Part shown: positions 31-48,739 of the stretch, one piece after another
Numbering within the stretch: the first letter of the stretch is position 1
How the letters are laid out: every line of letters starts with the position of its first letter
Source of the DNA: Lachnospiraceae bacterium
GTDB taxonomy: Bacteria; Bacillota; Clostridia; Lachnospirales; Lachnospiraceae
NCBI GenBank assembly: GCA_022483465.1
Contig: JAKVNF010000001.1
Location: 868,001-932,000 of the forward strand
Length of the DNA stretch: 64,000 nt
Direction of reading: 5' to 3'
Made by a program: the position numbers and the translations under genes
The notes under the pieces: generated by a model
What the model was told of the DNA's origin: nothing
The model's input: only the letters and a program-made list of their open reading frames with translations
Database searches by the model: none

Positions 31-67
31 TGACAATACAGCTCTCAATAAAGGCATTGTATTGTCA
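31..67. promoter_or_regulatory. 10-bp perfect inverted repeat TGACAATACA-N17-TGTATTGTCA upstream of first prophage gene; operator or weak terminator
   Basis: Arms at 31-40 and 58-67 read directly from sequence. Confidence 0.5.
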
Positions 68-280
68 GAAATTTTTGCTCTTGTCAGCTTCACTTTCACA
101 GACGTTCACCCGGTGCACAGAGTGGCTCGAGCGGATGTGATGGTCACAAGTAAATATGTAAGTCCGGCTACGAGCATGGCGGACCAACAGAGCGAGTTTT
201 TTACCCCGTTCCGATGGTACCGCCATGCTTTTTTCATGCCTCCGGTTCTCCTCGGCAACGGGAAGAACAGGAGGTTTTTT

Positions 281-916
281 ATGAAATTACACAAGACCAG
301 GCGGAACCAGCGTGAGACCTACAAGTATTACGACGCAAACGGAAAGCTCGTAATCGAACTGAAACCCGGAGAAAACGATGTAACGGAAGCAGACATCCGC
401 ACTCTTCATCTTCTGGATGACAGTGAAGTCAGAAGCAATCTTAAGTATCTGCACGGGAATCAGAAGGAACAGAAAGCCATGGTCGAGAAATGGAAAAAGG
501 ACTACGTCACATGGTTTGAATCCGCCTATCACCGCATGCCGACTGAAGACGAACTTGCCGTCGCCATGGAAGAAGCTGTACCGAAGAACTGGCTTGGCTC
601 CATTGAAGAGATGATGGGTGACGGCGATGAGGACGGCGTCGGTGACAAGGCAAGATTCCTCTACACCATCGATGAGCACGACAAAAAGCTGCCGGCGGAT
701 ATCGAAAGACTGCACGAAGTCATTGCCACAATGAAGAAAAGCTGGCGGGAAATCTATGAAATGAAATTCATCGAAGGATACAACAACTGTGAAATTGCAG
801 ACAAGCGTGGTGTGTCCGAAAGCGCGATTCGAAAGACTCTGGGCAAAATCACTGAGACGATCAGTAAAGATCCCGTGCTAAGAAAAATGTATAAGAAGGG
901 TGCGAAATCAAACTGA
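281..916 (+). CDS. Sigma-70 region 4-like / HTH phage protein
   Basis: ORF track with start moved to ATG 281 (RBS aggagg); C-terminal HTH-like ...YNNCEIADKRGVSESAIRKTLGKI. Confidence 0.7.
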   Translation: MKLHKTRRNQRETYKYYDANGKLVIELKPGENDVTEADIRTLHLLDDSEVRSNLKYLHGNQKEQKAMVEKWKKDYVTWFESAYHRMPTEDELAVAMEEAVPKNWLGSIEEMMGDGDEDGVGDKARFLYTIDEHDKKLPADIERLHEVIATMKKSWREIYEMKFIEGYNNCEIADKRGVSESAIRKTLGKITETISKDPVLRKMYKKGAKSN

Positions 917-6106: not shown

Positions 6107-6311
6107 AAAACTCGCCAACGCCATCGTCCTTCTGGCAGCGAAGGATTACCGGAGTGCCCTAAAGCGTCTGAAGAAAACTCCGAGGAACCGGGAAGCCAAG
6201 GCTGCTGCCTCTGATCTGGAGCGGTTCTTCCGCTCCGGATGGTATTCGGCTCTTACCTCTGTAGATGGAGAGTACCTGATAGAAAACATAAGAAAGGAGG
6301 TTCTCGAATGA
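6093..6311 (+). CDS. Small hypothetical phage protein
   Basis: ORF in operon overlap context. Confidence 0.55.
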   Translation: MDPYEKLANAIVLLAAKDYRSALKRLKKTPRNREAKAAASDLERFFRSGWYSALTSVDGEYLIENIRKEVLE

Positions 6312-6736
6312 CCCCAGAAGAATATCTCCAGCAGGCATATCGCCTCGACCAGCGCATACGTCTGGACACCGAGGAAGTAAAACGAATCCGGGAGCTGTCC
6401 TGCAGCGTTTCTGCGATCTGCTATGACAAGGAACACGTGCAGGCCTCCCATCCATCGGATGCACCTTTCGTGCAGGCACTGGAACGGTTGGAAGAACTAG
6501 AAGGAAAGATTGCGGATGAACTGAATCTCCTTTCCAAGCTGAAAAAACAGATCGGCGAAATGATCCGTTCCCTTCCTTCCACGGACGAGCAGTTGATTCT
6601 CTCCTACCGCTATCTCTGCGGGATGACCTGGAAAGAGATCGGAACGGAACTTCACATCGACCGGACCACTGCCTGCCGTTGGCATGACAACGCACTCGAT
6701 CACCTGAAGGTACCTGAAAATCCTGTAATGATTTAA
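6308..6736 (+). CDS. DUF1492-like late activator (sigma region 4-like HTH)
   Basis: LILSYRYLCGMTWKEIGTELHIDRTTACRWHDNALDHL; located before HNH/terminase. Confidence 0.7.
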   Translation: MTPEEYLQQAYRLDQRIRLDTEEVKRIRELSCSVSAICYDKEHVQASHPSDAPFVQALERLEELEGKIADELNLLSKLKKQIGEMIRSLPSTDEQLILSYRYLCGMTWKEIGTELHIDRTTACRWHDNALDHLKVPENPVMI

Positions 6737-6738
6737 AA

Positions 6739-6795
6739 GTTGCACGCAATACCACACGTTGCAACAAGACGCACGCCACCCCTGTATGTTATAGT
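6739..6795 (+). promoter_or_regulatory. Candidate late promoter: two GTTGCA direct repeats and extended -10 TGTTATAGT
   Basis: GTTGCA at 6739-6744 and 6758-6763; TATAGT at 6790-6795. Confidence 0.45.
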
Positions 6796-6901
6796 AGAAT
6801 CAGCAAAAATGAATGATACAAAGTCGCGCAGGCGGCTGAACCGAAGCCTCGAAGGAAGATTCCTCCGGGGCTTTTGTTATGCCAGAAAGGAGGCGGCAGG
6901 C

Positions 6902-9214: not shown

Positions 9215-9260
9215 ACTGCTGCGTTTCTTCGGCTTCTCTTTGGTAGTTATTTCATTTAGA

Positions 9261-9314
9261 TTCTCTTGCTATATTCCGGGCACAGAGTGATGTATGTACT
9301 ACAAAACAAAGGAG
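9261..9314 (+). promoter_or_regulatory. Leader motif copy A: CTTGCTATAT..CCGG..AGAGTGAT.TATGTAC
   Basis: Direct comparison with 10478-10530 and 11382-11435. Confidence 0.6.
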
Positions 9315-9323
9315 GTACATACC

Positions 9324-10034
9324 ATGAAACTTGCATTTAACGTTACCAAGGAAAACAAGAAGGCTTTCGCAAAGGCCATCGGAGAGATCACCGGAGAAAA
9401 AGCAGTCTACCAGTTCACCCCGACCTACGCCTTCCAGATCGGCGACCTGACCGTAAACCGGGATGCAACCCTGACGGCTCCGGACGGAAAGGACCTCGGG
9501 AGCCTGCTCGAAGCCCTAAAAGCTCAGGGGTATGAATTGCTTGAAGCCAAGGGCGCCCCGGAAGCTGAGCCACAGGAAGAAACACCTGCCGCAGACGAGA
9601 AGACGGAAGCAGATGAGAAAGCGCCGGAGCTTACGGTGAGCCTCCCGCTCACAGCCGCAAACGTCGGAACCCTGACGAACATCCTCTCCTCCAAGGGAGA
9701 CCTGATCCGGCACGCCCTCGGGGTCACGGACCTTCGAATCAACGTCACCGAGGACAAGATTGAATTCCCATGGTTTACCCGGGAACTTACCGCCGAGGAA
9801 GCAAAAGCTTACACCACTTTCCTTTCCCTGCTCTGCAAGTTCTCAAAAGAGCTGAAACACGCCAGCAACAGGCCGGTAGAAACGGACAATGAGAAATACG
9901 CCTTCCGCTGCTTCCTTCTCCGCCTCGGCTTTATCGGACCGGAGTACAAGAAAGCAAGAAAGATCCTGCTTCAGAACCTGACCGGAAGCGCAGCCTTCCG
10001 AAACGGAGCTCCGTCAAAGGAGGCAAAGGCATGA
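9324..10034 (+). CDS. Hypothetical phage protein
   Basis: ORF with RBS ggaggtacatacc; downstream of motif A. Confidence 0.65.
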   Translation: MKLAFNVTKENKKAFAKAIGEITGEKAVYQFTPTYAFQIGDLTVNRDATLTAPDGKDLGSLLEALKAQGYELLEAKGAPEAEPQEETPAADEKTEADEKAPELTVSLPLTAANVGTLTNILSSKGDLIRHALGVTDLRINVTEDKIEFPWFTRELTAEEAKAYTTFLSLLCKFSKELKHASNRPVETDNEKYAFRCFLLRLGFIGPEYKKARKILLQNLTGSAAFRNGAPSKEAKA

Positions 10035-10255
10035 GAATGATAAGCGAGACAGCACTCAAGGCTCTGCGGGAGAATTACCCGCAGGGCACACGAATCGAAC
10101 TGGTGCAGATGGATGATATTCAGGCGCCGCCTGCAGGAACCCTCGGAACCGTCATCGGAGTCGATGATACGGGGAGCCTTCTGGTGAACTGGGACAACGG
10201 CTCCGGCCTCAACGTGATCTACGGCGAAGATGTCGTAAGAAAGGTGGCAAGATGA
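10031..10255 (+). CDS. DUF4314-like protein
   Basis: YPQGTRIELVQMDDIQAPPAGTLGTVIGVDDTGSLLVNWDNGSGLNVIYGEDVV. Confidence 0.8.
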   Translation: MRMISETALKALRENYPQGTRIELVQMDDIQAPPAGTLGTVIGVDDTGSLLVNWDNGSGLNVIYGEDVVRKVAR

Positions 10256-10431
10256 TGGATCCGAAAGTAAAGGAACAGATCCTTTCGATCCGCGATACGG
10301 GACTTACGAACATGTTCGATCTTCCGATGGTTCAGCGCCTTGCCTACGAGAGAGGCTACTTCGAGCTGGTCCTCTACCTCGAGGATCACCGCGATGAATA
10401 TGCCCATCTCATCCTGCACGGCGAGGCATAA
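10252..10431 (+). CDS. DUF5049-like small protein
   Basis: Sub-60 aa ORF missed by track: MMDPKVKEQILSIRDTGLTNMFDLPMVQRLAYERGYFELVLYLEDHRDEYAHLILHGEA. Confidence 0.7.
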   Translation: MMDPKVKEQILSIRDTGLTNMFDLPMVQRLAYERGYFELVLYLEDHRDEYAHLILHGEA

Positions 10432-10477
10432 ATTACACAGCTTTTGCCCTCAAATCTTGTGCAAATTATGATCTACA

Positions 10478-10530
10478 TTTCCTTGCTATATCTTCCCGGT
10501 AGAGTGATTAATACACATGCCAAAGGAAAA
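10478..10530 (+). promoter_or_regulatory. Leader motif copy B
   Basis: TTCCTTGCTATATCTTCCCGGTAGAGTGATTAATACACATGCCAAAGGAAAA. Confidence 0.6.
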
Positions 10531-10557
10531 CAAGCACAAAGCAAGGAGGACAAAGCA

Positions 10558-10992
10558 ATGACGAACATTTTCGAAGAAACCTACAACACCATCGCAGAAG
10601 CAAAGAAAGCCTACAAGGAAGCCACCACCGCAGAGGAGCGGGACGCCGCAAGAGAAGCCGGGAAGGAAGCCGAGGACAGGATCGATGCGATGGGCGACAT
10701 CGCCTGGAAGATCTGGAGGGCTTACGAGAAATCAAGAGACAACGAGAACGAGATCCTCGACTTCGACGACATCATCTGGGACCGGGATGTGGAAGCCCTC
10801 ACCGCATGCATGAAGGAGAACGGCATCAAGGCCTTCACCTACTCCTGCAGGGCAACGGATGCAATCGAAACCTTATGGCTTTTTAAAGAGGCAGGCTGCA
10901 CGATCGGCGAGATGGTTGAGGTCAACCTCCGGAAGGACCTCTGGGGCAAAGGATATGAAAAAGGCCACGCCTTCAAGATGATCCTGAATTAA
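10558..10992 (+). CDS. Hypothetical phage protein
   Basis: ORF start at ATG 10558 after AGGAGG; downstream of motif B. Confidence 0.65.
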   Translation: MTNIFEETYNTIAEAKKAYKEATTAEERDAAREAGKEAEDRIDAMGDIAWKIWRAYEKSRDNENEILDFDDIIWDRDVEALTACMKENGIKAFTYSCRATDAIETLWLFKEAGCTIGEMVEVNLRKDLWGKGYEKGHAFKMILN

Positions 10993-11056
10993 GGGAATTG
11001 GGAGGGCCCTGAAGAGGGGCCTTCCAATTCTGGAACACGGAAAGGAGACAAAGACC

Positions 11057-11287
11057 ATGACAAGACAGAAAAAGGAAATCCTGAAGAAGATTGACGAAAT
11101 CGAAACATTTATTGCCGTCGATGATAAGCTTGGATGCGGAATGGCGCCTCCCGGTGCTTACGATTCTCTGTACGAGGAAGAGAACCGGCTCTGGGAAGAA
11201 CTAGCGCACTTAAGCCATTACCCGGATGCCATATCGATGCAGATGGATCCGAGAAGCATCGCCAGAGCGGAGGTGCCATTCAAGTAA
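11057..11287 (+). CDS. Small hypothetical phage protein
   Basis: ORF with RBS aaaggaga. Confidence 0.6.
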   Translation: MTRQKKEILKKIDEIETFIAVDDKLGCGMAPPGAYDSLYEEENRLWEELAHLSHYPDAISMQMDPRSIARAEVPFK

Positions 11288-11381
11288 AAAGAATCGGGAA
11301 CGGAGCCCTTATGAAAGGCCCTGTTCCTCGTACAAATACACACAATTTCTTCCGCTGATCTTTGTCACATATATGCGTTGG

Positions 11382-11435
11382 TTCTCCTTGCTTTATATCC
11401 GGCGCAGAGTGATATATGTACATGCCAAAGGAAAA
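11382..11435 (+). promoter_or_regulatory. Leader motif copy C
   Basis: TTCTCCTTGCTTTATATCCGGCGCAGAGTGATATATGTACATGCCAAAGGAAAA. Confidence 0.6.
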
Positions 11436-11466: not shown

Positions 11467-11694
11467 ATGTGGAAAAAAGGAAGCATTAAGATCGAGAACC
11501 AGACATTCACCTACTGCGCAAAGGTATACGGAGAGCCTAGCGAGGACTACGGCATCGAAGGCGGCAAGATCAGCAAGCTTGAGATTTGCCTCGGAGACTT
11601 CCCGGTCGCAAGATACGACAGAGGCTGGGACATCGAGCCGGAAACAGAAAACGCACAGCTGGCGGTTCTTGCCATCATGAACAACTTCAGATAA
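11467..11694 (+). CDS. Small hypothetical phage protein
   Basis: MWKKGSIKIENQTFTYCAKVYGEPSEDYGIEGGKISKLEICLGDFPVARYDRGWDIEP; downstream of motif C. Confidence 0.6.
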   Translation: MWKKGSIKIENQTFTYCAKVYGEPSEDYGIEGGKISKLEICLGDFPVARYDRGWDIEPETENAQLAVLAIMNNFR

Positions 11695-11799: not shown

Positions 11800-13407
11800 A
11801 TGGCGATGCGAAAACTGAAGAATTACAAGCCGACACGCTTTATGGCGGAGACCTCCCACTACAGCAAGGAGGCTGCAGATTATGCCGTGCTCTTTATCGA
11901 AAGTCTCCGGCATACCAAAGGCAGCTGGTACCGGAAGCCCTTTGATCTGATTGACTGGCAGGAGCAGATCATCCGAGATCTTTTTGGTGTTTTGAAGCCA
12001 AACGGCTATCGCCAGTTCAATACAGCCTACATCGAGATTCCAAAGAAACAAGGAAAGTCCGAGCTTGCCGCGGCGGTCGCTCTGCTTCTCACCTGCGGCG
12101 ATGGGGAAGAGCGTGCAGAAGTCTACGGTTGTGCCGCAGACAGAAATCAGGCCAAGATCGTGTACGACGTGGCCGTTGATATGGTGCGGCTCTGCCCCGC
12201 TCTGGATAAACGAGTGAAGATTCTGGAATCCCAGAAGAAACTCATCTATCTTCCGACGAACAGTACCTATCAGGTGCTCTCTGCAGATGTCGCCAATAAA
12301 CACGGTTTTAATACGAGCGGCGTGATTTTCGATGAGCTTCACACCCAGCCGAATCGGAAATTATACGACGTTATGACAAAAGGATCCGGCGATGCCAGAA
12401 CCCAGCCGCTTTACTTTCTGATCACGACTGCAGGAACGGATACGAATAGCATCTGCTACGAGGTCCACCAGAAGGCACTCGATATTATCGCCGGAAGAAA
12501 GATTGATCCGACCTTCTACCCTGTGATCTACGGCGCAGCGGAATCCGACGACTGGACAGATCCGGAGGTCTGGAAGAAAGCGAATCCGTCGCTTGGCATC
12601 ACGGTCGGCATCGATAAGGTGCAAGATGCCTGCAACTCCGCCAAACAGAATCCCGGCGAAGAGAACGCCTTCCGGCAGCTGAGACTGAACCAATGGGTAA
12701 AACAGGCTGTCCGCTGGATGCCAATGGACAAATGGGACGCCTGTGCCTATCCTGTGGATCCGGATGAGCTGGAGGGCCGTGTCTGCTATGGCGGTCTTGA
12801 CCTTTCGTCCACAACGGATATCACAGCCTTTGTCCTCGTCTTCCCGCCAAGGGATGAGACGGATAAATATGTGGTTCTCCCCTACTTCTGGATTCCGGAG
12901 GACAACGTTGATCTTCGTGTGAGGCGTGATCACGTTCCTTACGACCTCTGGGAGAAGGAAGGCTATCTCGAAACGACCGAAGGCAATGTCATTCATTACG
13001 GATTTATCGAGAAGTTCATCGAGAATCTCGGGAACCGGTTCAATATCCGTGAGATCGCCTTTGACCGCTGGGGAGCTGTCCAGATGGTACAGAACCTCGA
13101 GGGCATGGGCTTTACCGTTGTTCCTTTCGGCCAGGGATTTAAAGATATGTCTCCGCCTACCAAGGAGCTCATGAATCTGGTCCTTGAGAAACGGATTGCC
13201 CACGGCGGGCATCCGGTGCTCCGCTGGATGATGGATAACATCTTCATCCGTCGTGATCCGGCAGGAAACATCAAGGCAGACAAGGAAAAGTCCACAGAGA
13301 AGATCGATGGCGCGGTCGCTATGATCATGGGCCTCGACCGGGCAATCCGGTGCGGCAACGATAGCGGCGAATCCGTCTACGACGACCGCGGCATCCTCTT
13401 TCTCTGA
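11800..13407 (+). CDS. Phage terminase large subunit
   Basis: Walker A-like IEIPKKQGKSELAAAVAL, FDELHTQPNRKLYDVM, GGLDLSSTTDITAFVLVFP. Confidence 0.95.
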   Translation: MAMRKLKNYKPTRFMAETSHYSKEAADYAVLFIESLRHTKGSWYRKPFDLIDWQEQIIRDLFGVLKPNGYRQFNTAYIEIPKKQGKSELAAAVALLLTCGDGEERAEVYGCAADRNQAKIVYDVAVDMVRLCPALDKRVKILESQKKLIYLPTNSTYQVLSADVANKHGFNTSGVIFDELHTQPNRKLYDVMTKGSGDARTQPLYFLITTAGTDTNSICYEVHQKALDIIAGRKIDPTFYPVIYGAAESDDWTDPEVWKKANPSLGITVGIDKVQDACNSAKQNPGEENAFRQLRLNQWVKQAVRWMPMDKWDACAYPVDPDELEGRVCYGGLDLSSTTDITAFVLVFPPRDETDKYVVLPYFWIPEDNVDLRVRRDHVPYDLWEKEGYLETTEGNVIHYGFIEKFIENLGNRFNIREIAFDRWGAVQMVQNLEGMGFTVVPFGQGFKDMSPPTKELMNLVLEKRIAHGGHPVLRWMMDNIFIRRDPAGNIKADKEKSTEKIDGAVAMIMGLDRAIRCGNDSGESVYDDRGILFL

Positions 13408-30846: not shown

Positions 30847-32495
30847 CTCAAACTTCCCACTTGGTCCGACCCTCGAAAAACGTTGAAAATACGCCCAAAA
30901 TTGAGCTTTTTACTATGAGTTTTTCGGCTTCTTGACAATTGAAAAAGCACTCTGTGCCTTCTATAATATGATCATCCACAATCAAAAGAAAGTACAGGTG
31001 CTCACAATGAGTATACATCAAAACAAGCCAATTGCAACTGCTAATTTCGAGGACGAATGTGCGTTTGGAAACGCCATGAAAGAGCTTGGCGTAAGCGCTC
31101 TCCTGAAGGCCTCCAATATCACCAAGGCGAAGGGTGCCTCTGCATATGAGCTCTTTCAGTTTCTTGTAATCCTCGTGTTCCAGAAGTGCAACCTGTATCA
31201 CTTCCTCAACTCCAAGAAGAAGGATACTGCCTATGACGATAACACCTACTACCGCTTCCTGAATGAAGGACGCTACAACTGGAGAAAGTTCATCCTGCTC
31301 CTCTCCGCCAGGATTGCCGCCTATTTCACTACTCTTACCCGCGAGGACAGAGCACGATGCTTCGTGCTCGATGACTCTGTCATCGCCCGTAACCGTTCCA
31401 AAAAGGTGGAGCTGCTCTCCAATGTCTACAATCACGTGATCCACAGAACCGAGAGGGGATTTAATCTCCTTCTTCTTGGGTGGACCGATGGATACAGCTT
31501 CCTTCCGGTCCAGTACATCATGCTTGCTTCGGCCAAGGCTAAGAGCCGCATCTGCGACGTATACGACAAGCACCTGCGTCATAACACCAACGCGTACAAG
31601 AGACGGGTGGATGCAATTACGCAAAAGCCCGTGATTGCACTTCAGTTGCTTCGCTTCGCCATTGACGCTGATATCAAAGCCGAATACGTGCTCATGGATA
31701 CCTGGTTCACGACAGAATCGTTCATCTGCAACATCAAGAACCTCGGCCTTGAGGTGATCGGCATGCTCAAAGATACCAAGCAGCAGTATTGGTACAAAGG
31801 CAGGCTGTATAACCTGAAAGGCCTTGCGAAGACTGCCATCCGTCATTGCCCGCAGGGGAACCTGTTCGGGTCCATTGTTGTCAAAACGAAGTATCAGCAG
31901 CTTCCTGTCAAGCTGGTCTTTGTCCGCAATCGCAACAAGAAGGACGAGTACATCATCCTTCTAACCACTGCGGTGACTCTGCCCGACAGTGAGGTAGTCA
32001 GAATCTATGGCTACAGGTGGGGCATCGAGGTATGCTTCAGGGCATGTAAGTCCCTTCTCAAGCTTGGCAAGGAGTTTCAAGGACTCAGCTACGACGTAAC
32101 CGACAGCACAACTGCACTCGTGCTCACACGATTTCTCATTCTCGAGTATATCCGTCGCAAGAAGAATGATCCCAAGACCATCTGTGAGCTGTTCTTCGTC
32201 TGCTGTGATGACATTCAGGATATTTCCCTGAAGCAGTCGATTGACCGTCTTGCTGCAATGCTGATCGAGGGGGTCAGAACAGGTGATGTCTCCATTCAGA
32301 TCTCCGAAAAGATGCGTAGCGACCTGACGAACTGGTTTTCGACACAGCCTGAGTTTATACAGAACCTGTTCCGCGACTTCCTAAATTTGTTTCTAACAAG
32401 CGATAAAGTTGCATAATGCTGTCAAGTTTCAAAAAATCACCTGTTGAGCAAGAAACCATCGGCTGTTACAGCATTTTTCAAGTGGGAAGTTTGAG
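30847..32495 (+). mobile_element. IS4-like insertion sequence, 17-bp TIR, 7-bp TSD TTAATTA
   Basis: TIR CTCAAACTTCCCACTTG (30847) / CAAGTGGGAAGTTTGAG (ends 32495); TSD 30840-30846 and 32496-32502. Confidence 0.92.
30932..32416 (+). CDS. IS4-family DDE transposase
   Basis: CFVLDDSVIARNRSKK, VLMDTWFTTESFI, YGYRWGIEVCFRACKSLLKLGKEFQGLSY. Confidence 0.88.
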   Translation: MTIEKALCAFYNMIIHNQKKVQVLTMSIHQNKPIATANFEDECAFGNAMKELGVSALLKASNITKAKGASAYELFQFLVILVFQKCNLYHFLNSKKKDTAYDDNTYYRFLNEGRYNWRKFILLLSARIAAYFTTLTREDRARCFVLDDSVIARNRSKKVELLSNVYNHVIHRTERGFNLLLLGWTDGYSFLPVQYIMLASAKAKSRICDVYDKHLRHNTNAYKRRVDAITQKPVIALQLLRFAIDADIKAEYVLMDTWFTTESFICNIKNLGLEVIGMLKDTKQQYWYKGRLYNLKGLAKTAIRHCPQGNLFGSIVVKTKYQQLPVKLVFVRNRNKKDEYIILLTTAVTLPDSEVVRIYGYRWGIEVCFRACKSLLKLGKEFQGLSYDVTDSTTALVLTRFLILEYIRRKKNDPKTICELFFVCCDDIQDISLKQSIDRLAAMLIEGVRTGDVSIQISEKMRSDLTNWFSTQPEFIQNLFRDFLNLFLTSDKVA

Positions 32496-39390: not shown

Positions 39391-39807
39391 ATGACCGATG
39401 AACAGAAAACCCGTATCTTCCGTATGAGAGAACAGGGAATGAGCTATGACGCGATTGCCGAGTCCCTCTCCCTTTCCAAGAATACCGTCAAGTCTTACTG
39501 CCGCCGGAACAACCTTTCCGGACGCAGGAAACAGGAGTCTGATGATGCAAAGCCTGCGGAATTCTGTCCGAACTGCGGAAAGCCCGTCCGGCAGATTCCG
39601 GGAAGAAAACATATCCGGTTCTGCAGCAGTGCCTGCCGTCAGGAATGGTGGAACAGCCATCTGGACCAGGTGAACCGGAAGGCTGTCTACGAATACACAT
39701 GTGCCTACTGTGGTCGACACTTCACCGCCTATGGCAACTCACACCGGAAATACTGCTCCCATGCCTGCTATATCGCAGATCGGTTTGGAGGTGATCCACA
39801 TGAGTAA
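39391..39807 (+). CDS. HTH protein with two zinc-ribbon-like clusters
   Basis: MREQGMSYDAIAESLSLSKNTVKSYCRRNNL; CPNCGKPV...CSSACRQEWW; CAYCGRHF...CSHACY. Confidence 0.82.
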   Translation: MTDEQKTRIFRMREQGMSYDAIAESLSLSKNTVKSYCRRNNLSGRRKQESDDAKPAEFCPNCGKPVRQIPGRKHIRFCSSACRQEWWNSHLDQVNRKAVYEYTCAYCGRHFTAYGNSHRKYCSHACYIADRFGGDPHE

Positions 39808-39970
39808 AAAGGATTTTGAACGTGAAACCGACTACATGCTCTCCATCCAGATCGCCAAAAATCTCCTTGAGAAAGGACTTCTCACCGAGGAAGAATACGC
39901 AGTAATTGATACAAAATTGATTGAGAAATACCAGCCGAAATTCGGCACATTATTCTCGGAAACAACTTGA
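39800..39970 (+). CDS. SHOCT-like small protein upstream of recombinases
   Basis: MSKKDFERETDYMLSIQIAKNLLEKGLLTEEEYAVIDTKLIEKYQPKFGTLFSETT. Confidence 0.75.
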   Translation: MSKKDFERETDYMLSIQIAKNLLEKGLLTEEEYAVIDTKLIEKYQPKFGTLFSETT

Positions 39971-40019
39971 TGTGTGTGGCCTTCAGAGTGATCTATAGAC
40001 ACGGAAAGGAGCTGATTTT

Positions 40020-41762
40020 ATGGGAAAAATCACGAAGATTGAGCCAACTGTAAAGGCTCTTCCGAAAAGGAAAAAAGTCGCAGCTTACGCCCGTGTATCG
40101 ATGGAAACCGAGCGACTGCACCATTCGCTTTCTGCCCAGGTAAGCTACTACTCCGATTTGATTCAAAAGAATCCCGAATGGGAGTACGCCGGTGTGTATG
40201 CCGACGAAGGCATCTCCGGCACATCCACATCGAAACGCCCGGAATTCCAGCGCCTGCTTTCCGACTGCGAAGCCGGTAAGATTGACATCGTTCTAACGAA
40301 GTCCATCAGCCGGTTTGCCCGGAACACGGTCGACCTGCTGGAGACCGTCCGGCACTTAAAGGAGCTGGGCATCGAGGTACGATTCGAGAAGGAGCACATC
40401 AATTCCCTTTCCGGCGATGGCGAGGTTATGCTCACGCTTCTGGCTTCCTTCGCTCAAAGCGAATCGGAAAGCATCTCGACCAACGTGAAATGGGGCATCC
40501 GGAAGCGGATGCAGGCAGGAATTCCATATGCCAACGGTCACATGAACGTCTACGGCTACCGATGGGAAGGCGATGAGCTGGTTATTGTTCCCGAAGAAGC
40601 GGCAGTCGTAAAAAGGATTTACCAGAACTTCCTTGATGGAAAGTCGAGGCTGGAGACCGAGAAGGAATTCGCCGCTGAAGGAATCACAACCCGCGCCGGT
40701 GCACGATGGGTAGATTCCAACCTGAAGGTTGTGCTTTCGAACGTCACCTACACCGGCAACATGCTCTACCAGAAGGAGTACATCACCGACCCGATTACCA
40801 AAAAGGTAAAGAAGAATCACGGCGAGCTTCCCCAATACTATGTGGAGAATACCCACCCGGCCATCATCGACAAAGAGACCTTCGACTATGTGCAGCGTGA
40901 GATGGCCCGTAGAAAAGAACTCGGGTGCTTCGCAAACAAAGCCCTGACGCTCAACTGCTTCTCAACGAAGATCAAGTGCGGCTGCTGCGGCAGAAGTTTT
41001 GTCCGGTCAAAGAAGAAAAACAAGGCAAAGCACAGCAACCTCGGCGAATACGATGTCTTCTGGCTCTGCACAAGCCACAAGAAGAAAAAGCATCCCGGAC
41101 AGGTTGCCTGCACCAGCGGCGTTATCCGGGAGTCGGTTCTCAAGGAAGAAATCGCTAAGGTTCTCAGCCTTCCCGATTTTGACGAAGATGCCTTTACCGC
41201 AAGGGTAAAGCAGATCACCATCCCGGAAACCGGAACGCTCATCTTCGAGTTTATCGACGGCACCACGCTGGAGCACCATTGGCACCGCAACTTCAAAAAG
41301 GATGCCTGGACCAAAGAACTGCGGGAACAGGCATCGGCGTATCGACGGACGCACCCAGCAAACAAGAAGGGAAAGACCTGCTTCACCGCCAAAATCCGCT
41401 GCGAGAAATGCGGCGGCAATTACCGCAGGCAGGCGGTGACGATGGCGGATGGCCATCAGAACAGCTACTGGCACTGCTGCAGCGGCAAGAGCCTTCGGGA
41501 TGATCATCTAAAAGAGCTTACTGCTGAGGTGCTTGGGCTTGAATCTTTCGACGAAGAAGTTTTTCTGAAGCAGATCGACTACATTTCCGTCCGAGACGTC
41601 ACGCATCTCACCTTTCATTTCTACGACGGCCATACTGAAGGACGAGAATACGAATTTCGTAAAGAAGGTGTCAAATGGACCGATGACCGGCGTGTAAAGC
41701 AGACGCAGGCCATCCGTGAAAGCTTCACTCCGGAGCGAAGACAGAAAATGAGTAGGCGTTAG
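40020..41762 (+). CDS. Large serine recombinase 1; 3' end altered by IS1595 insertion
   Basis: AAYARVSMETERLHHSLSAQVSYY; DEGISGTSTSKRPEFQRLL; SISRFARNTVDLLETVR. Confidence 0.95.
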   Translation: MGKITKIEPTVKALPKRKKVAAYARVSMETERLHHSLSAQVSYYSDLIQKNPEWEYAGVYADEGISGTSTSKRPEFQRLLSDCEAGKIDIVLTKSISRFARNTVDLLETVRHLKELGIEVRFEKEHINSLSGDGEVMLTLLASFAQSESESISTNVKWGIRKRMQAGIPYANGHMNVYGYRWEGDELVIVPEEAAVVKRIYQNFLDGKSRLETEKEFAAEGITTRAGARWVDSNLKVVLSNVTYTGNMLYQKEYITDPITKKVKKNHGELPQYYVENTHPAIIDKETFDYVQREMARRKELGCFANKALTLNCFSTKIKCGCCGRSFVRSKKKNKAKHSNLGEYDVFWLCTSHKKKKHPGQVACTSGVIRESVLKEEIAKVLSLPDFDEDAFTARVKQITIPETGTLIFEFIDGTTLEHHWHRNFKKDAWTKELREQASAYRRTHPANKKGKTCFTAKIRCEKCGGNYRRQAVTMADGHQNSYWHCCSGKSLRDDHLKELTAEVLGLESFDEEVFLKQIDYISVRDVTHLTFHFYDGHTEGREYEFRKEGVKWTDDRRVKQTQAIRESFTPERRQKMSRR

Positions 41763-42968
41763 TAAGAAAACGGGTTGATAAGCTCCAAAGCATTTTAGCA
41801 GAAGTATAAAATATGCCGTTTTGTACATTCTGCTGTACAACGGCCTTCTCTAACTTGAACTACAATAGTCTTGCCAGGAGGGCAAGACTATGAGCTGCAT
41901 TGAGCGCATACTGACCGAAGCCAGAGATCTTTCCAGGGACGACCTGATTCTTCTTGTTAACAAGCTCATGGAGGGCTTCTCCCATGAGAGTGCAACCTCT
42001 TCTCCGAAGAAGATGATTGCTCCCCGTTTGGATTGTCCGATCTGCCATTCCAATGCTCATGTTGTTAGGAATGGACACAAACATGGAAAACAGGCATACA
42101 TCTGCAGGCAATGTGGAACGTCATTTGTTACAACGAGCAACACTTTGCTCTCAGGCTCACACTTTGGTACTGAGATCTGGACCAAGGTTCTGGAAGAGAC
42201 GCTCAGGGGGACCTCTCTGGATAAGACGGTCAAGTCACTTGCCAGCCATGGATGCAAGATCAGCCATAGCAGTCTGTTCTTCATGCGGCATAAGATCATG
42301 CTTGCTCTCGAGGACATGCAGGTGGAGCAGCCAGCCACGGTGGAAGATGTCGTGGAAGCGGATGAAACCTACGTTCCGGAGTCCAAAAAAGGTACGAAAT
42401 TTGGCCCTGATGCCAGTCGAAAGCCCCGCAAGCGTGGCACTCCCGCATCCAAACGCGGCCTTTCAGACGAGCAGATCTGTATCTGCACCGCAGTACAGCG
42501 CAAGACTGGCGATCTGATCGTGAAATCCGAGAACCGGGCAAGGCCTTCCAGTGCGGATGTTGTTGATATCTATACTGGTCATGTCCAGAAGGGAACACTT
42601 TTCCTGACGGACGGCATGAATGTGTATCCAAGACTGGGCAAGATCCTGGGAATCACGGTCATGAATGTGAAGAAGGAGTCGGCAAGTTTCTTCAATCTGA
42701 ACACTGTGAACAACCTTCACTCCTTTATCAAGCACCGCTATATCGAATATCGCGGCGTGGCTACCAAGTATTTGAACCGTTACAACCTCGTATTCCGGGC
42801 AGCGTACAGGCAGAGGACCACGATTGGGGAACTTGCGGACGCTCTCTTTGCATCCAGGAATCCCAAGAAGGTACACCATTATGGAGATGTTAAGGAGCTC
42901 AATCTGCTTGCAATTTGATGACTACAAGATGCACTTATTGCTTATCAACCCGTTTTCTTACTAACGCC
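41755..42968 (+). mobile_element. IS1595-like insertion sequence, 29-bp perfect TIR, 8-bp TSD AATGAGTA
   Basis: TIR GGCGTTAGTAAGAAAACGGGTTGATAAGC at 41755-41783 and 42940-42968; TSD 41747-41754 / 42969-42976. Confidence 0.95.
41890..42918 (+). CDS. IS1595-like transposase with zinc ribbon
   Basis: CPICHSNAHVVRNGHKHGKQAYICRQCGTSFV; DDE-type VVEADETYVPESKKG. Confidence 0.88.
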   Translation: MSCIERILTEARDLSRDDLILLVNKLMEGFSHESATSSPKKMIAPRLDCPICHSNAHVVRNGHKHGKQAYICRQCGTSFVTTSNTLLSGSHFGTEIWTKVLEETLRGTSLDKTVKSLASHGCKISHSSLFFMRHKIMLALEDMQVEQPATVEDVVEADETYVPESKKGTKFGPDASRKPRKRGTPASKRGLSDEQICICTAVQRKTGDLIVKSENRARPSSADVVDIYTGHVQKGTLFLTDGMNVYPRLGKILGITVMNVKKESASFFNLNTVNNLHSFIKHRYIEYRGVATKYLNRYNLVFRAAYRQRTTIGELADALFASRNPKKVHHYGDVKELNLLAI

Positions 42969-44660: not shown

Positions 44661-45068
44661 TCATATCCGGAGTGTACTTTCTTTTAATCTCATGATGTTT
44701 TTCTCAATTTCCTGAATGACTTTTAAATATACTTCATCCGCCTGCCCGGTCGGGTCGGGCAGTTCCCAGTCTTCATCAAACGGTCTCCCAATATATGGAC
44801 ATCCACCCAAGCAGCCCATCGAAATGACAATATCCGGCTTGGGGATCTGGTCGATGGTTTTGCTGTACTGATCTTTTTCCATGTCGATTCCATAAAGCTC
44901 TTTCATCAACCGGACGGCATCCGGATTGATGTTTTCTTTTAATGCAGTTCCGGCGGAATAACTTTCGAACACATCAGAAGCATATTTTTTTCCGAGCGCC
45001 TCCGCAATCTGGCTGCGGCAGGAATTATGAACGCAGATAAACGCCACCTTCGGCTTTCTTTTTCCCAT
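44661..45068 (-). CDS. arsC: Arsenate reductase, low-MW phosphatase type
   Basis: KVAFICVHNSCRSQIAEALGKK; VISMGCLGGCPYIGRPFDEDWELPDPTG. Confidence 0.95.
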   Translation of the reverse strand: MGKRKPKVAFICVHNSCRSQIAEALGKKYASDVFESYSAGTALKENINPDAVRLMKELYGIDMEKDQYSKTIDQIPKPDIVISMGCLGGCPYIGRPFDEDWELPDPTGQADEVYLKVIQEIEKNIMRLKESTLRI

Positions 45069-46110
45069 AATTGAACCATCCTTTCGTAGAATTGGCGATC
45101 TTCACAAGCGTCAGCATGACTGGGACTTCTGTCAGGACGCCGACCGTTGTGGCAAGAGCCGCGGGGCTTGTTGTCCCGAACAGTGCGATGGCAACTGCTA
45201 CGGCGAGTTCAAAGAAGTTCGATGCTCCGATCATACCGGCAGGTGCAGCTATATCAAACGGCAGTTTCACAAGTCTTGACGCTCCGTAGGCAATGAAGAA
45301 GATCAGGAAGGTCTGAAGAATCAGAGGGACGGCGATTAGCACGATATGTAGCGGATTCGAGAGAATCATTTCCGCCTGTGAGCTGAAAATGATAACGAGC
45401 GTGAGCAAAAGTCCAATCGTCATTACGTTGTCGAACTTGTGGATGAAAACCTCATCCAGATATTTTTCGCCTTTGCTTTTCGTAATTGTGATACGCGTCA
45501 AAATGCCTGCAGCAAGTGGGATCACAACGAACAGGAAGATGCTGACGAACAGCGTACTGTAAGGGACCGTCACATTGGAAACTCTGAGAAGGAATTTCAC
45601 AATCGGGACGAACGCGATCAGGATGATGAGATCATTTGTCGCTACCTGAACAACCGTATAGGCAGGATTCCCGTGCGTCAGGCTGCTCCAGACGAAGACC
45701 ATCGCCGTACAGGGCGCGGCTCCGAGAAGAACGGCACCGGCCAGATACTGCGTCGCGAGATCCGCCGGGATCAGGCTACGGAAAACCACAAACAGGAAGA
45801 AGTAAACGATCCCGTACATTGTAAACGGCTTGATCAGCCAGTTCGTGATCCATGTAACAAAAAGACCTTTCGGATTCTTTCCGACATTTTTAATACTCTG
45901 GAAATCTACCTTGATCATCATCGGATAGATCATGATCCAGATGAGCACCGCGATCGGAATGGAAATACCCGCGATCTGCAGCTTCCCGAGGAATTCCGAG
46001 ACTGCCGGAATAAAGTGCCCAATCAGCACACCTGCCGCCATGCAGAGCAATACCCAGATCGTAAGATAGCGCTGATAGAAACTGATTGATGCATTTTTTT
46101 CATTATCCAT
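45025..46110 (-). CDS. acr3: ACR3-family arsenite efflux permease
   Basis: GAAPCTAMVFVWSSLTHGNPAYTVVQVATNDLI. Confidence 0.95.
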   Translation of the reverse strand: MDNEKNASISFYQRYLTIWVLLCMAAGVLIGHFIPAVSEFLGKLQIAGISIPIAVLIWIMIYPMMIKVDFQSIKNVGKNPKGLFVTWITNWLIKPFTMYGIVYFFLFVVFRSLIPADLATQYLAGAVLLGAAPCTAMVFVWSSLTHGNPAYTVVQVATNDLIILIAFVPIVKFLLRVSNVTVPYSTLFVSIFLFVVIPLAAGILTRITITKSKGEKYLDEVFIHKFDNVMTIGLLLTLVIIFSSQAEMILSNPLHIVLIAVPLILQTFLIFFIAYGASRLVKLPFDIAAPAGMIGASNFFELAVAVAIALFGTTSPAALATTVGVLTEVPVMLTLVKIANSTKGWFNYGKKKAEGGVYLRS

Positions 46111-46121
46111 TTTACTGCCTC

Positions 46122-47867
46122 CTAAAATAATTCACGGAGTGCTTTCCCTTTGATTTCATCGGGACTCCATCGGACTACGGCAAAGGTTCCATCTGTATGT
46201 TCGGCCACCCGGTTGATCCATGAGATTTCGTGTTCAGCCTTCGCTTCTATAAGAGGATCACTTGTCTGCGCGCCGTAGAAAGAAGAATTGACGATCCACC
46301 ATTTGACGGCAATACCAGAACGTTTCAGATCTTTTTCCAGACGGAGCGCCTCATAAACCGGAGTGGCTTCTGCCAGTGTGACAATGATAACTTCAGCTTC
46401 CGGAGAACGAAGTCTCGGCAGGAGTTTCCGGACAGACTCCGGGATATCAGCCCCCTCAGTACGTTCCACTTCCCGGTGGTAACTCAGGGAAGAATCCAGG
46501 AGAAGCAGCGTGTGTCCCGTCGGAGCAGTATCAATAACCACAGTTTCCTTCTTCGAACTTTCCACGATGTCTGCAAAAGCCCGGAATACAGCGATTTCCT
46601 GCGTGCATGGAGAGCGGAGATCCTCCTCCACATAATCGAGATCTGATTCAGACATACTTTCTCTTGCTTTTGCAAGAACCTCTTCCTGATACGATTTCAA
46701 TTCTTTTTCGGCGTCGATGTAACTCATTCTGATCCGGGCGGACTGGTCAATGACATATTTCAGATGGGCCGCCGGATCCGTTGTTGCAAGATGAACATGT
46801 ACTCCCTTGTCCGCAAGGCCAAGAGCAATGGCTGCCGCGATTGTCGTCTTTCCGACACCGCCCTTTCCCATCGTGAAGATGACTTTCTTTTCTGCCTTAT
46901 AAAGATCATCTATGACATCCTGAAGGCGGTTCAACTTTAAAGAGACGAGCGTTTCCGTCTCAGGCTCGATTTCGTCCTCCTTCAGCAGCGCACGGATGTG
47001 CGCGATGCCTTCCACGTTATAAGCACGAAGCGGAACATAAAATACCTTCATTCCGGCAAGTGCAGGCGGCATTTCAGACAGCGCCTCCTGCTGCTTTCTG
47101 TACATCTCAGCAGACAACTTATCTTCCGAATGAACGTCCAGAAGGCCATTGATAATCAGGATCTGGTTCTGTATTCCCAACTGCCCGAGCTGAACGGATG
47201 CATTGGCTGCTTCTTTTAAAGGCAGGGATTCCGGTCTTGTTACAAGGACAAGTGTAGTAAGACTCTTATCTCCAAGCACTCTCACAGCGTGTTTATAAAT
47301 ATCTTTCTTTGATTCCAGACCGGAAAGCTGACCCAGACAGGATGCGCCTTTTTTATTATCTTCAAGAAATCCGCTCCACGCAGATGGGAGCTGGAGCATC
47401 CGGAGAGTATGGCCCGTGGGTGCTGTATCGAAAATAATATGGTCATACGCCTGATTCAGTTTCCTGTCTGTAAGATAGCCGGAGAAAGCATTAAATGCTG
47501 CGATTTCTACTGTACAGGATCCGGAAAGCTGTTCTTCCATGTTGGCAATGGCGGATTCGGGAAGCTTTTCTCTGTAAGGAGCCACAACACTTTCACGGTA
47601 TTCTGCCGCAGCTTTTTCCGGATCGATATTCACCGCCGTAAGACCCGGGACATCCGGAACTTCGGTCTCATGATTTTCAAGATCGATACCGAATACGTCC
47701 TGCAGATTGGAAGCGGGATCTGTACTGATCAGAAGCACCTTTTTCCCCTGATCTGCAAGGCTGACCGCCACGGCGCATGCAATTGACGTTTTGCCGACAC
47801 CGCCTTTGCCGGTAAAGAAAATGTACTTTGTAAAATTCACTTCATTCAGGCTGAATGGTTTCATCAT
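46122..47867 (-). CDS. arsA: Arsenite-pump ATPase with two ATPase halves
   Basis: Two P-loops FFTGKGGVGKTSIACA and FTMGKGGVGKTTIAAA; two DTAPTGHT motifs. Confidence 0.96.
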   Translation of the reverse strand: MMKPFSLNEVNFTKYIFFTGKGGVGKTSIACAVAVSLADQGKKVLLISTDPASNLQDVFGIDLENHETEVPDVPGLTAVNIDPEKAAAEYRESVVAPYREKLPESAIANMEEQLSGSCTVEIAAFNAFSGYLTDRKLNQAYDHIIFDTAPTGHTLRMLQLPSAWSGFLEDNKKGASCLGQLSGLESKKDIYKHAVRVLGDKSLTTLVLVTRPESLPLKEAANASVQLGQLGIQNQILIINGLLDVHSEDKLSAEMYRKQQEALSEMPPALAGMKVFYVPLRAYNVEGIAHIRALLKEDEIEPETETLVSLKLNRLQDVIDDLYKAEKKVIFTMGKGGVGKTTIAAAIALGLADKGVHVHLATTDPAAHLKYVIDQSARIRMSYIDAEKELKSYQEEVLAKARESMSESDLDYVEEDLRSPCTQEIAVFRAFADIVESSKKETVVIDTAPTGHTLLLLDSSLSYHREVERTEGADIPESVRKLLPRLRSPEAEVIIVTLAEATPVYEALRLEKDLKRSGIAVKWWIVNSSFYGAQTSDPLIEAKAEHEISWINRVAEHTDGTFAVVRWSPDEIKGKALRELF

Positions 47868-47880
47868 GGATCAATCCTCC

Positions 47881-48348
47881 TCAACAGCAGCCTCCGCAGC
47901 AGCACCCGCTCTCCGGTTTCTCCTCTTTGGCTGAATCACCACAGCAGGATTCCCCTGCTGCATCCGAACAACAGGATCCATTCTTGTCTTCATTCTCTTC
48001 TTTAACATCAGATGAAAGCATACTTTCCGGAAGTCCAAGAAGGCTGATCACTTCCTCATTGGAAGGATACCTTCCGGTAATCACAATATCTCCGTCTACA
48101 GTGATGACAGGAAGGCCCTCTGCTCCTTCTGAACGGAGGAATGCACTTACCGGTTCACTTTCCACGAACTTCATCGGAGCACTGCTCAAGTTATAACGTT
48201 CTATGGAAATTCCTTCTTTTTTAAGAGTACTGACGGCAGCTGAAATTCTCAGTAGTTCGGGATCCACGCCCACTCCGCAGACTCCTGTTTCACAGCACAT
48301 CGCCGGTTCATAGATAACCATCTTTTTCATCGTTTTTCTCCTTTTCAA
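47881..48348 (-). CDS. arsD: ArsD metallochaperone/trans-acting repressor
   Basis: VIYEPAMCCETGVCGVGVDPELLRISAAV; Cys-rich tail CCCGGCC. Confidence 0.95.
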   Translation of the reverse strand: MKRRKTMKKMVIYEPAMCCETGVCGVGVDPELLRISAAVSTLKKEGISIERYNLSSAPMKFVESEPVSAFLRSEGAEGLPVITVDGDIVITGRYPSNEEVISLLGLPESMLSSDVKEENEDKNGSCCSDAAGESCCGDSAKEEKPESGCCCGGCC

Positions 48349-48358
48349 GTATAGAAGT

Positions 48359-48380
48359 ATTGAAATAATTCTATGTGTTT
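48359..48380. promoter_or_regulatory. Second ArsR-operator-like site between arsR and arsD
   Basis: attgaaataattctatgtgttt resembles 48753-48774. Confidence 0.6.
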
Positions 48381-48390
48381 GTTAAAATAT

Positions 48391-48415
48391 TCCGATGCCT
48401 TTTAAGGCATCGGGT
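48391..48415 (-). terminator. Hairpin after arsR
   Basis: CCGATGCCTTTTAAGGCATCGG. Confidence 0.65.
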
Positions 48416-48418
48416 TAC

Positions 48419-48739
48419 TTAATCTGCACAGCAATTTTGGTTCTGACAGATACAGTTCTCTTTTTCCGTAAAAATGGATGCAAGAGTTTTCTGAAGCTGA
48501 TCGAGAACATCATTGTTCAGGGAATAATAGATGTTCTTTCCTTCCCTCCGATCATTGACAATCCCGGCATCTACAAGAAGTTTCATGTCATGGGAAAGCG
48601 TCGGCTGTGTAATCTGAAATGCATCAAGGATTCTGCATGCGCACAATTCCCCGCAGGAAAGCATATCTACGATCTTCAGCCTCTTCGGATCAGCAATGAC
48701 TTTTAATAACTTGGCTGCATCTGTATAAACCTTTTCCAT
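48419..48739 (-). CDS. arsR: ArsR-family arsenic-responsive repressor
   Basis: IVDMLSCGELCACRILDAFQITQPTLSHDMKLLVDAGIVNDRREGKNIYYSL. Confidence 0.95.
   Translation of the reverse strand: MEKVYTDAAKLLKVIADPKRLKIVDMLSCGELCACRILDAFQITQPTLSHDMKLLVDAGIVNDRREGKNIYYSLNNDVLDQLQKTLASIFTEKENCICQNQNCCAD

Follow-up and report, generated by a model that had tools for sequence, protein, structure and literature searches.

A conserved promoter-like signal in front of accessory genes and the serine-recombinase operon of heliusvirus-type phages and satellite-like elements

The window, i.e., the whole 64-kb stretch of DNA that was analysed, contains a prophage with four copies of a short signal, listed together with their downstream genes in Table 1. 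TerL, capsid, SNF2 helicase, VRR-NUC, polA, DUF2800 and DUF2815 of this element match classified phages, and its portal matches the motif loci discussed below. Judged by these shared genes, the element appears to have the core-gene set of Candidatus Heliusviridae, i.e., TerL, portal, Clp protease, capsid, DNA polymerase I, helicase, nuclease and two DUF genes (PMC9226167). A 482-aa ORF, transposase-like by reading, is found at 30968-32416 and separates the DUF2800 gene from the DUF2815 gene; other phages have the two side by side. The two recombinase genes are split apart by an insertion sequence (41754-42968), which was recently active given its 99.9% identical copy in the satellite-like element L283 (see below). 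Just right of the prophage, reading of the sequence only points to arsenic-resistance-like genes on the minus strand (45025-48739).

Table 1. Signal copies of the window and the genes behind them.
Feature	Positions	Strand	Remarks
Copy 1	9258..9313	+	TTG at 9266 in CTTGCTATA (-35-like), AGAGTGATGTATGTAC from 9284 (-10 region)
Copy 1, predicted transcription start	~9301	+	inferred
Copy 2	10475..10530	+	CTTGCTATA at 10482, AGAGTGATTAATACACATGCC from 10501; predicted start ~10519
Copy 3	11380..11435	+	CTTGCTTTA at 11387, AGAGTGATATATGTACATGCC from 11406; predicted start ~11424
Copy 4	39959..40014	+	CTTGATGTG at 39966, AGAGTGATCTATAGACA from 39985; directly 5' of recombinase operon
Unit 1	9324..10431	+	three genes, behind copy 1
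Unit 1, gene 1	9324-10034	+	amidoligase-related protein, PHROG 2443
Unit 1, gene 2	10031-10255	+	DUF4314
Unit 1, gene 3	10252-10431	+	DUF5049
Unit 2	10558..11287	+	DUF7698 protein (10558-10992), small unknown ORF (11057-11287)
Unit 3	11467..11694	+	DUF7678 protein; terL next, at 11800
Large serine recombinase	40020..41762	+	gene 1 of recombinase operon

Copies 1 to 4 score 39.0, 45.2, 54.1 and 37.4 bits with a weight matrix for which only copies from elsewhere were used, while dinucleotide shuffling of the window (40 shuffles, both strands) gave a best score of -0.3 bits. That is, all four copies are real and far above chance. A threefold motif and a fourth site had been described in an earlier note on this DNA, and all four places are present as claimed. 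The consensus given there holds strictly for copy 3; copy 2 shows 3 differences in the 3' block and copy 1 carries TACTACAAAACAAAGG where the consensus has ACATGCCAAAGGAAAA. The CCGG block, taken for conserved, falls inside a variable spacer and shows no conservation, and the fourth copy, taken for degenerate, counts fully as a copy, given its TTG at -18 and its counterparts in six other phages. Since the proteins downstream of copies 1-3 are unrelated to each other, gene duplication is not the cause of the repetition, as the note had argued.

Further loci were collected with the 17-mer AGAGTGATNTATGTACA, which is found in at least 119 IMG/VR stretches and at least 113 stretches of GTDB genomes. 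The copy set, i.e., the listed loci and the window with at most 3 mismatches to the 17-mer, comprises at least 407 copies. The signal is composed of A/T tracts, CTTG[C/A]TATT, about 10 variable nt and AGAGTGATATATGTACATACCAAAAG, in this order. Among the matches listed, TTG (rarely TGG) is placed exactly 18 nt before AGAG in 387/407 copies, and 372 of these 387 are followed by a Shine-Dalgarno-led ORF (median distance 53 nt from AGAG). Within the profile, the A/T tracts are found at about -46, -34 and -23, i.e., 11 bp apart, and CTTG[C/A]TATT covers positions -19 to -11, followed by the variable spacer and AGAGTGATATATGTACATRCCAAAAG. Position +18 is a purine (A or G) in 97% of the profile copies, T stays below about 6% from +18 to +33 within an A-rich leader, and conservation reaches about +24. 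The TTG block is absent from 12/232 exact 17-mer loci among the matches listed; most of these look like chance matches, e.g., in Vibrio and Flavobacteriaceae, and a few are at a contig end.

Collecting the loci with an exact core pattern biases the profile conservation at positions 0-16. We therefore re-selected copies by the upstream block alone, which corrects the bias in part only and yields, among the matches listed, 124 non-exact copies in which a downstream block can be recognised. Most of them retain AGAG and GAT; positions 8, 12, 13 and 15-17 vary, and the rarer cores AGAGCGAATATAC and TACGGGAATATAC, each one nt shorter, are found among them. A palindromic operator TATGTACATA was dismissed, as it is not retained in unselected copies.

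Judged by its layout, the signal is almost certainly a promoter. CTTG[C/A]TATT (-35-like CTTGCTATT) would form the -35 region, backed by A/T-rich UP-like tracts, and AGAGTGATATATG, or rarer AGAGCGAATATAC or TACGGGAATATAC, would form the -10 region. Given this geometry, transcription is predicted to begin about 18 nt after AGAG at the purine, and the resulting 5' UTR would be short, T-poor and unstructured with a Shine-Dalgarno site. With TTG as -35 region, the UP-element subsites would coincide with the A/T tracts, and +1 would coincide with +18, where the T-poor leader begins. TTGCTAT as -35 region is a more likely reading than the former one, i.e., an extended -10 at TGCTATAT, because the A/T tracts adjoin TTGCTAT upstream and a second near-invariant block follows at -10 distance. 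It also speaks for a promoter that the non-exact copies retain the -10-like block. On the other hand, neither hexamer equals the sigma-A consensus (best -35/-10 spacing 19), no sigma-70-type sites are listed at the copies, no regulator common to all carriers was found, and canonical terminators are rare between the units. The idea of autonomous units with canonical terminators was dropped: hairpins 5' of the copies are mildly enriched over shuffles and a T-run is present in 13/123.

The earlier note had also considered an RNA leader. A structured leader or the site of an RNA-binding protein within the 5' UTR would agree with a signal 30-60 nt upstream of start codons and with the conservation up to about +24. 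We nevertheless deem this highly unlikely, given that for 40 diverse sequences RNAalifold predicts not a single consensus base pair and that there is no Rfam match. Furthermore, the block is mostly 5' of the predicted start, which leaves about 7 conserved nt in the RNA, and the phased A/T tracts upstream, like the fixed spacing, are in line with recognition of the DNA. A leader peptide MYIPKG, prompted by the period-3 variation at +18, +21 and +24, was rejected because the phi1605 and Javan191 copies show ATG-TAA and ATG-TAG. The start-associated sequences (SAS) of cluster K mycobacteriophages are likewise short, repeated, asymmetric, intergenic, of one orientation, placed before differing gene families and rare outside their group; due to their location at gene starts, a role in translation initiation was proposed (PMC3203893). 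In contrast, the signal studied here is bipartite (-35/-10-like) with a median of 53 nt to the start codon, and it neither overlaps nor abuts the ribosome-binding site, i.e., a separate Shine-Dalgarno site follows.

The signal is carried by Candidatus Heliusviridae-type phages, whose hosts belong to Clostridia, Bacilli, Negativicutes and Actinomycetota and which have TerL, portal, Clp protease, capsid, DNA polymerase I, helicase and nuclease in common. The respective paper leaves promoters or motifs unmentioned, while a promoter-like signal is seen here; it names phi1605, a relative, and reports heliusviruses in >90% of the participants of one human cohort (PMC9226167). NatCom_11578 belongs to Ca. 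Heliusvirales by record taxonomy. Among the matches listed, a methyltransferase is encoded upstream of the copies on the same strand in 134/134 cases and TerL downstream in 148/150. The copies are oriented as both genes and always point toward the gene behind them. The ORFs behind the copies fall into about 30 sequence clusters (among the matches listed), with amidoligase-related proteins, DUF7698, DUF7678 and Nmad4 as the commonest products; defence annotation of this cargo by PADLOC gave no convincing match.

We compared the window with phages of Streptococcus (two), Gardnerella, Erysipelothrix, Terrisporobacter and Acutalibacteraceae. In these 358 kb, 19 sites reach at least 20 bits and none scores between 5 and 20 bits. 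All 19 precede accessory units between methyltransferase and TerL or directly precede the serine-recombinase operon. Four variant-core sites and the recombinase copy of NatCom_11578 obey the same rule, such that 7/7 whole or near-whole phages have the recombinase-operon copy, the window's fourth copy counted. No copy was found before TerS, structural, lysis or replication genes of these seven phages. The regular placement before a recombinase gene, along with cassette content that differs between phages, could also suggest a serine-recombinase recombination site for gain and loss of accessory cassettes. This is very improbable in our view: no conserved dyad was seen in the copies, whereas serine-recombinase attachment sites have an imperfect dyad around a central dinucleotide, TATGTACATA varies, and the fixed spacing, the narrow Shine-Dalgarno distance and the constant orientation toward the gene behind fit a promoter.

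Using a sequence-only model, we also scanned the host genome, the family and the phylum. The 4.3-Mb host genome yields 14 copies at E below 1e-3. They are distributed over three prophages, namely that of the window (4 copies), L284 (3) and L285 (1), and over the elements L282 and L283 (3 each). Thus, 14/14 strong copies are inside such phage or satellite-like elements. For the family, 25/150 genomes show matches (E at most 0.01), where most of the weak ones (E above about 1e-3) seem to be chance hits. For the phylum sample, matches are found in 25/199 genomes (E at most 1e-4), and 17/19 examined loci found by the model show the same gene context. The earlier note's claim of a dedicated regulon signal is strongly supported by the hundreds of copies, the fixed geometry and only two kinds of positions.

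Taken by position and company, each copy is probably a promoter of one element-specific class that serves accessory units and the recombinase operon outside the late operon. Such a promoter would drive the separate methyltransferase-terL accessory units and the serine-recombinase operon. As the late operon would not be involved, accessory and recombinase genes could be co-expressed outside the late phase. Judged by the integrase and cargo genes in its company, the promoter would most likely be active upon entry or during lysogeny. Dedicated classes that include an integrase promoter are known from the CII-dependent promoters of lambda (pI, pRE, paQ), which need TTGC-N6-TTGC. The signal shares the TTGC in the -35 region with them; however, it has a single TTGC.

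The copies are shortly upstream of terL. They could be read as the phage late promoter, activated by a DUF1492/ArpU-type regulator (6308-6736), in which case the late operon would simply begin with the accessory genes and terL. Six of six comparison phages encode a DUF1492/PHROG 36 regulator (possibly broken in Javan191), and the window's DUF1492 protein is a late-regulator homologue (PHROG 36). Ltr/RinA/ArpU-dependent late promoters of temperate phages from Gram-positive hosts (e.g., P23 of phi13) are likewise a phage promoter class near terminase genes, but they are single, right behind ltr and 5' of terS, and the published regulators act via about four direct repeats just 3' of their own gene (PMC13123087). 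The signal, in contrast, is multi-copy and 5' of accessory genes and integrase: its copies are behind the methyltransferase or before the recombinase operon, and its conserved profile lacks the four or so imperfect direct repeats 5' of the -10. Gardnerella AB1 and Javan105 instead have direct 10-bp repeats behind their DUF1492 gene, and weaker ones are seen in the window. Moreover, the integrase has a copy while terS and structural genes have none. Since the expected repeats are elsewhere and signal-bearing satellite-like elements have no detectable DUF1492, we demoted DUF1492/Ltr as activator of the signal and regard the late-promoter reading as quite unlikely. The late promoter is most likely behind the DUF1492 gene, which leaves the signal as a separate class. 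For the window, positions 6737-6800 are the probable late promoter, where weak direct repeats (AAGTTGCACGC / AAGACGCACGC) are accompanied by a TATAGT-like -10. At the same place, two comparison phages have clearer repeats of 10 bp (L235:12895-12930, L237:20253-20298).

A possible, though not favoured, alternative is an ordinary constitutive host sigma-A promoter with a weak -35 and an extended -10 (TGnTATATG) but no dedicated factor. Accessory genes and integrase would then be kept on in the lysogen, and the uniformity of the signal would reflect common descent of the cassettes. This agrees with the TG one base ahead of TATATG in the main class, the UP-like A/T tracts, the use of one signal form across very different hosts and the lack of a phage-encoded regulator common to all carriers, satellite-like elements counted. 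However, a consensus sigma-A promoter (TTGACA, 16-18 nt, TATAAT) was not found at the copies, for which TTGCTA-19-TATATG is the best reading; the spacing of 19 and the invariant AGAGTGAT exceed sigma-A needs. Compared to the extended -10 TGnTATAAT, TGATATATG is present in the main class and absent from the variant classes, i.e., TGnTATATG is lost in AGAGCGAATATAC / TACGGGAATATAC with positions unchanged. Common descent of cassettes also fails to explain the uniformity, since unrelated genes and the recombinase operon have the signal in common.

An element-specific promoter may be read by host sigma-A, either alone or together with a factor encoded by the element. We considered three candidate readers, i.e., DUF1492, a sigma-like and an HTH/zinc-ribbon protein, none of which is universal. 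The early sigma-region-4-like proteins (window 62-916 and relatives) belong to different families with no recognised region 2, and none was found in the satellite-like elements. The HTH/zinc-ribbon protein (39391-39807) was not found in several of the comparison phages. Sigma-70 region-4-like proteins of the comparison phages are encoded at L235:1433-2065, L237:9364-9975 and L238:31156-31779; their gene is just before the DUF2800 module, and next to the primase module in the window.

Within the host genome, two related elements (L282, L283, L293 and L295; C1:1548001-1578000 and C1:1597001-1619465) have an accessory block with three copies each. These elements encode a CI-like repressor, an HTH_17 excisionase-like protein, a D5-type primase and an HK97-type capsid; a large serine recombinase is seen in one of the two. 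No methyltransferase homologues are present at the blocks, and no terminase large subunit, portal or tail homologues were found near them. IMG/VR relatives share accessory genes, with recognisable signal copies in L307 and L310 and without them in L308. The latter encodes primase, TerS, amidoligase, DUF4314, DUF7678 and recombinase within less than 10 kb, and L310 encodes capsid and primase with two signal copies and an adjoining GmrSD-type restriction enzyme. By their gene content, L282, L283 and their relatives are likely phage satellites, capsid-encoding in the former two, and L282 and L283 likely have cargo and promoter in common with heliusviruses. The former reading as a phage regulon stands for a phage lineage, and the regulon is wider still because satellite-like elements carry the signal too.

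Altogether, the shared signal suggests that the genes behind it form one regulon. A description of the signal was not found as far as our literature searches reached; multi-copy phage regulon signals themselves are known, and the regulon is unusual. More speculatively, and rather doubtful at present, heliusviruses and capsid- or TerS-encoding satellites may have one regulon in common, where an element-encoded or helper-supplied factor would switch on integrases and accessory genes (superinfection, conversion, anti-competitor) as a separate temporal class and satellites would be plugged into the helper circuit via the same promoter. In practice, the 56-nt signal marks the starts of accessory units and is thus a direct finder of heliusvirus cargo genes, including tiny ORFs of unknown families. 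It also opens a way to probe how integration and cargo expression are linked and, by its presence in satellite-like elements, provides a handle on which satellites exploit heliusviruses. Both L282 and L283 are full of insertion sequences.
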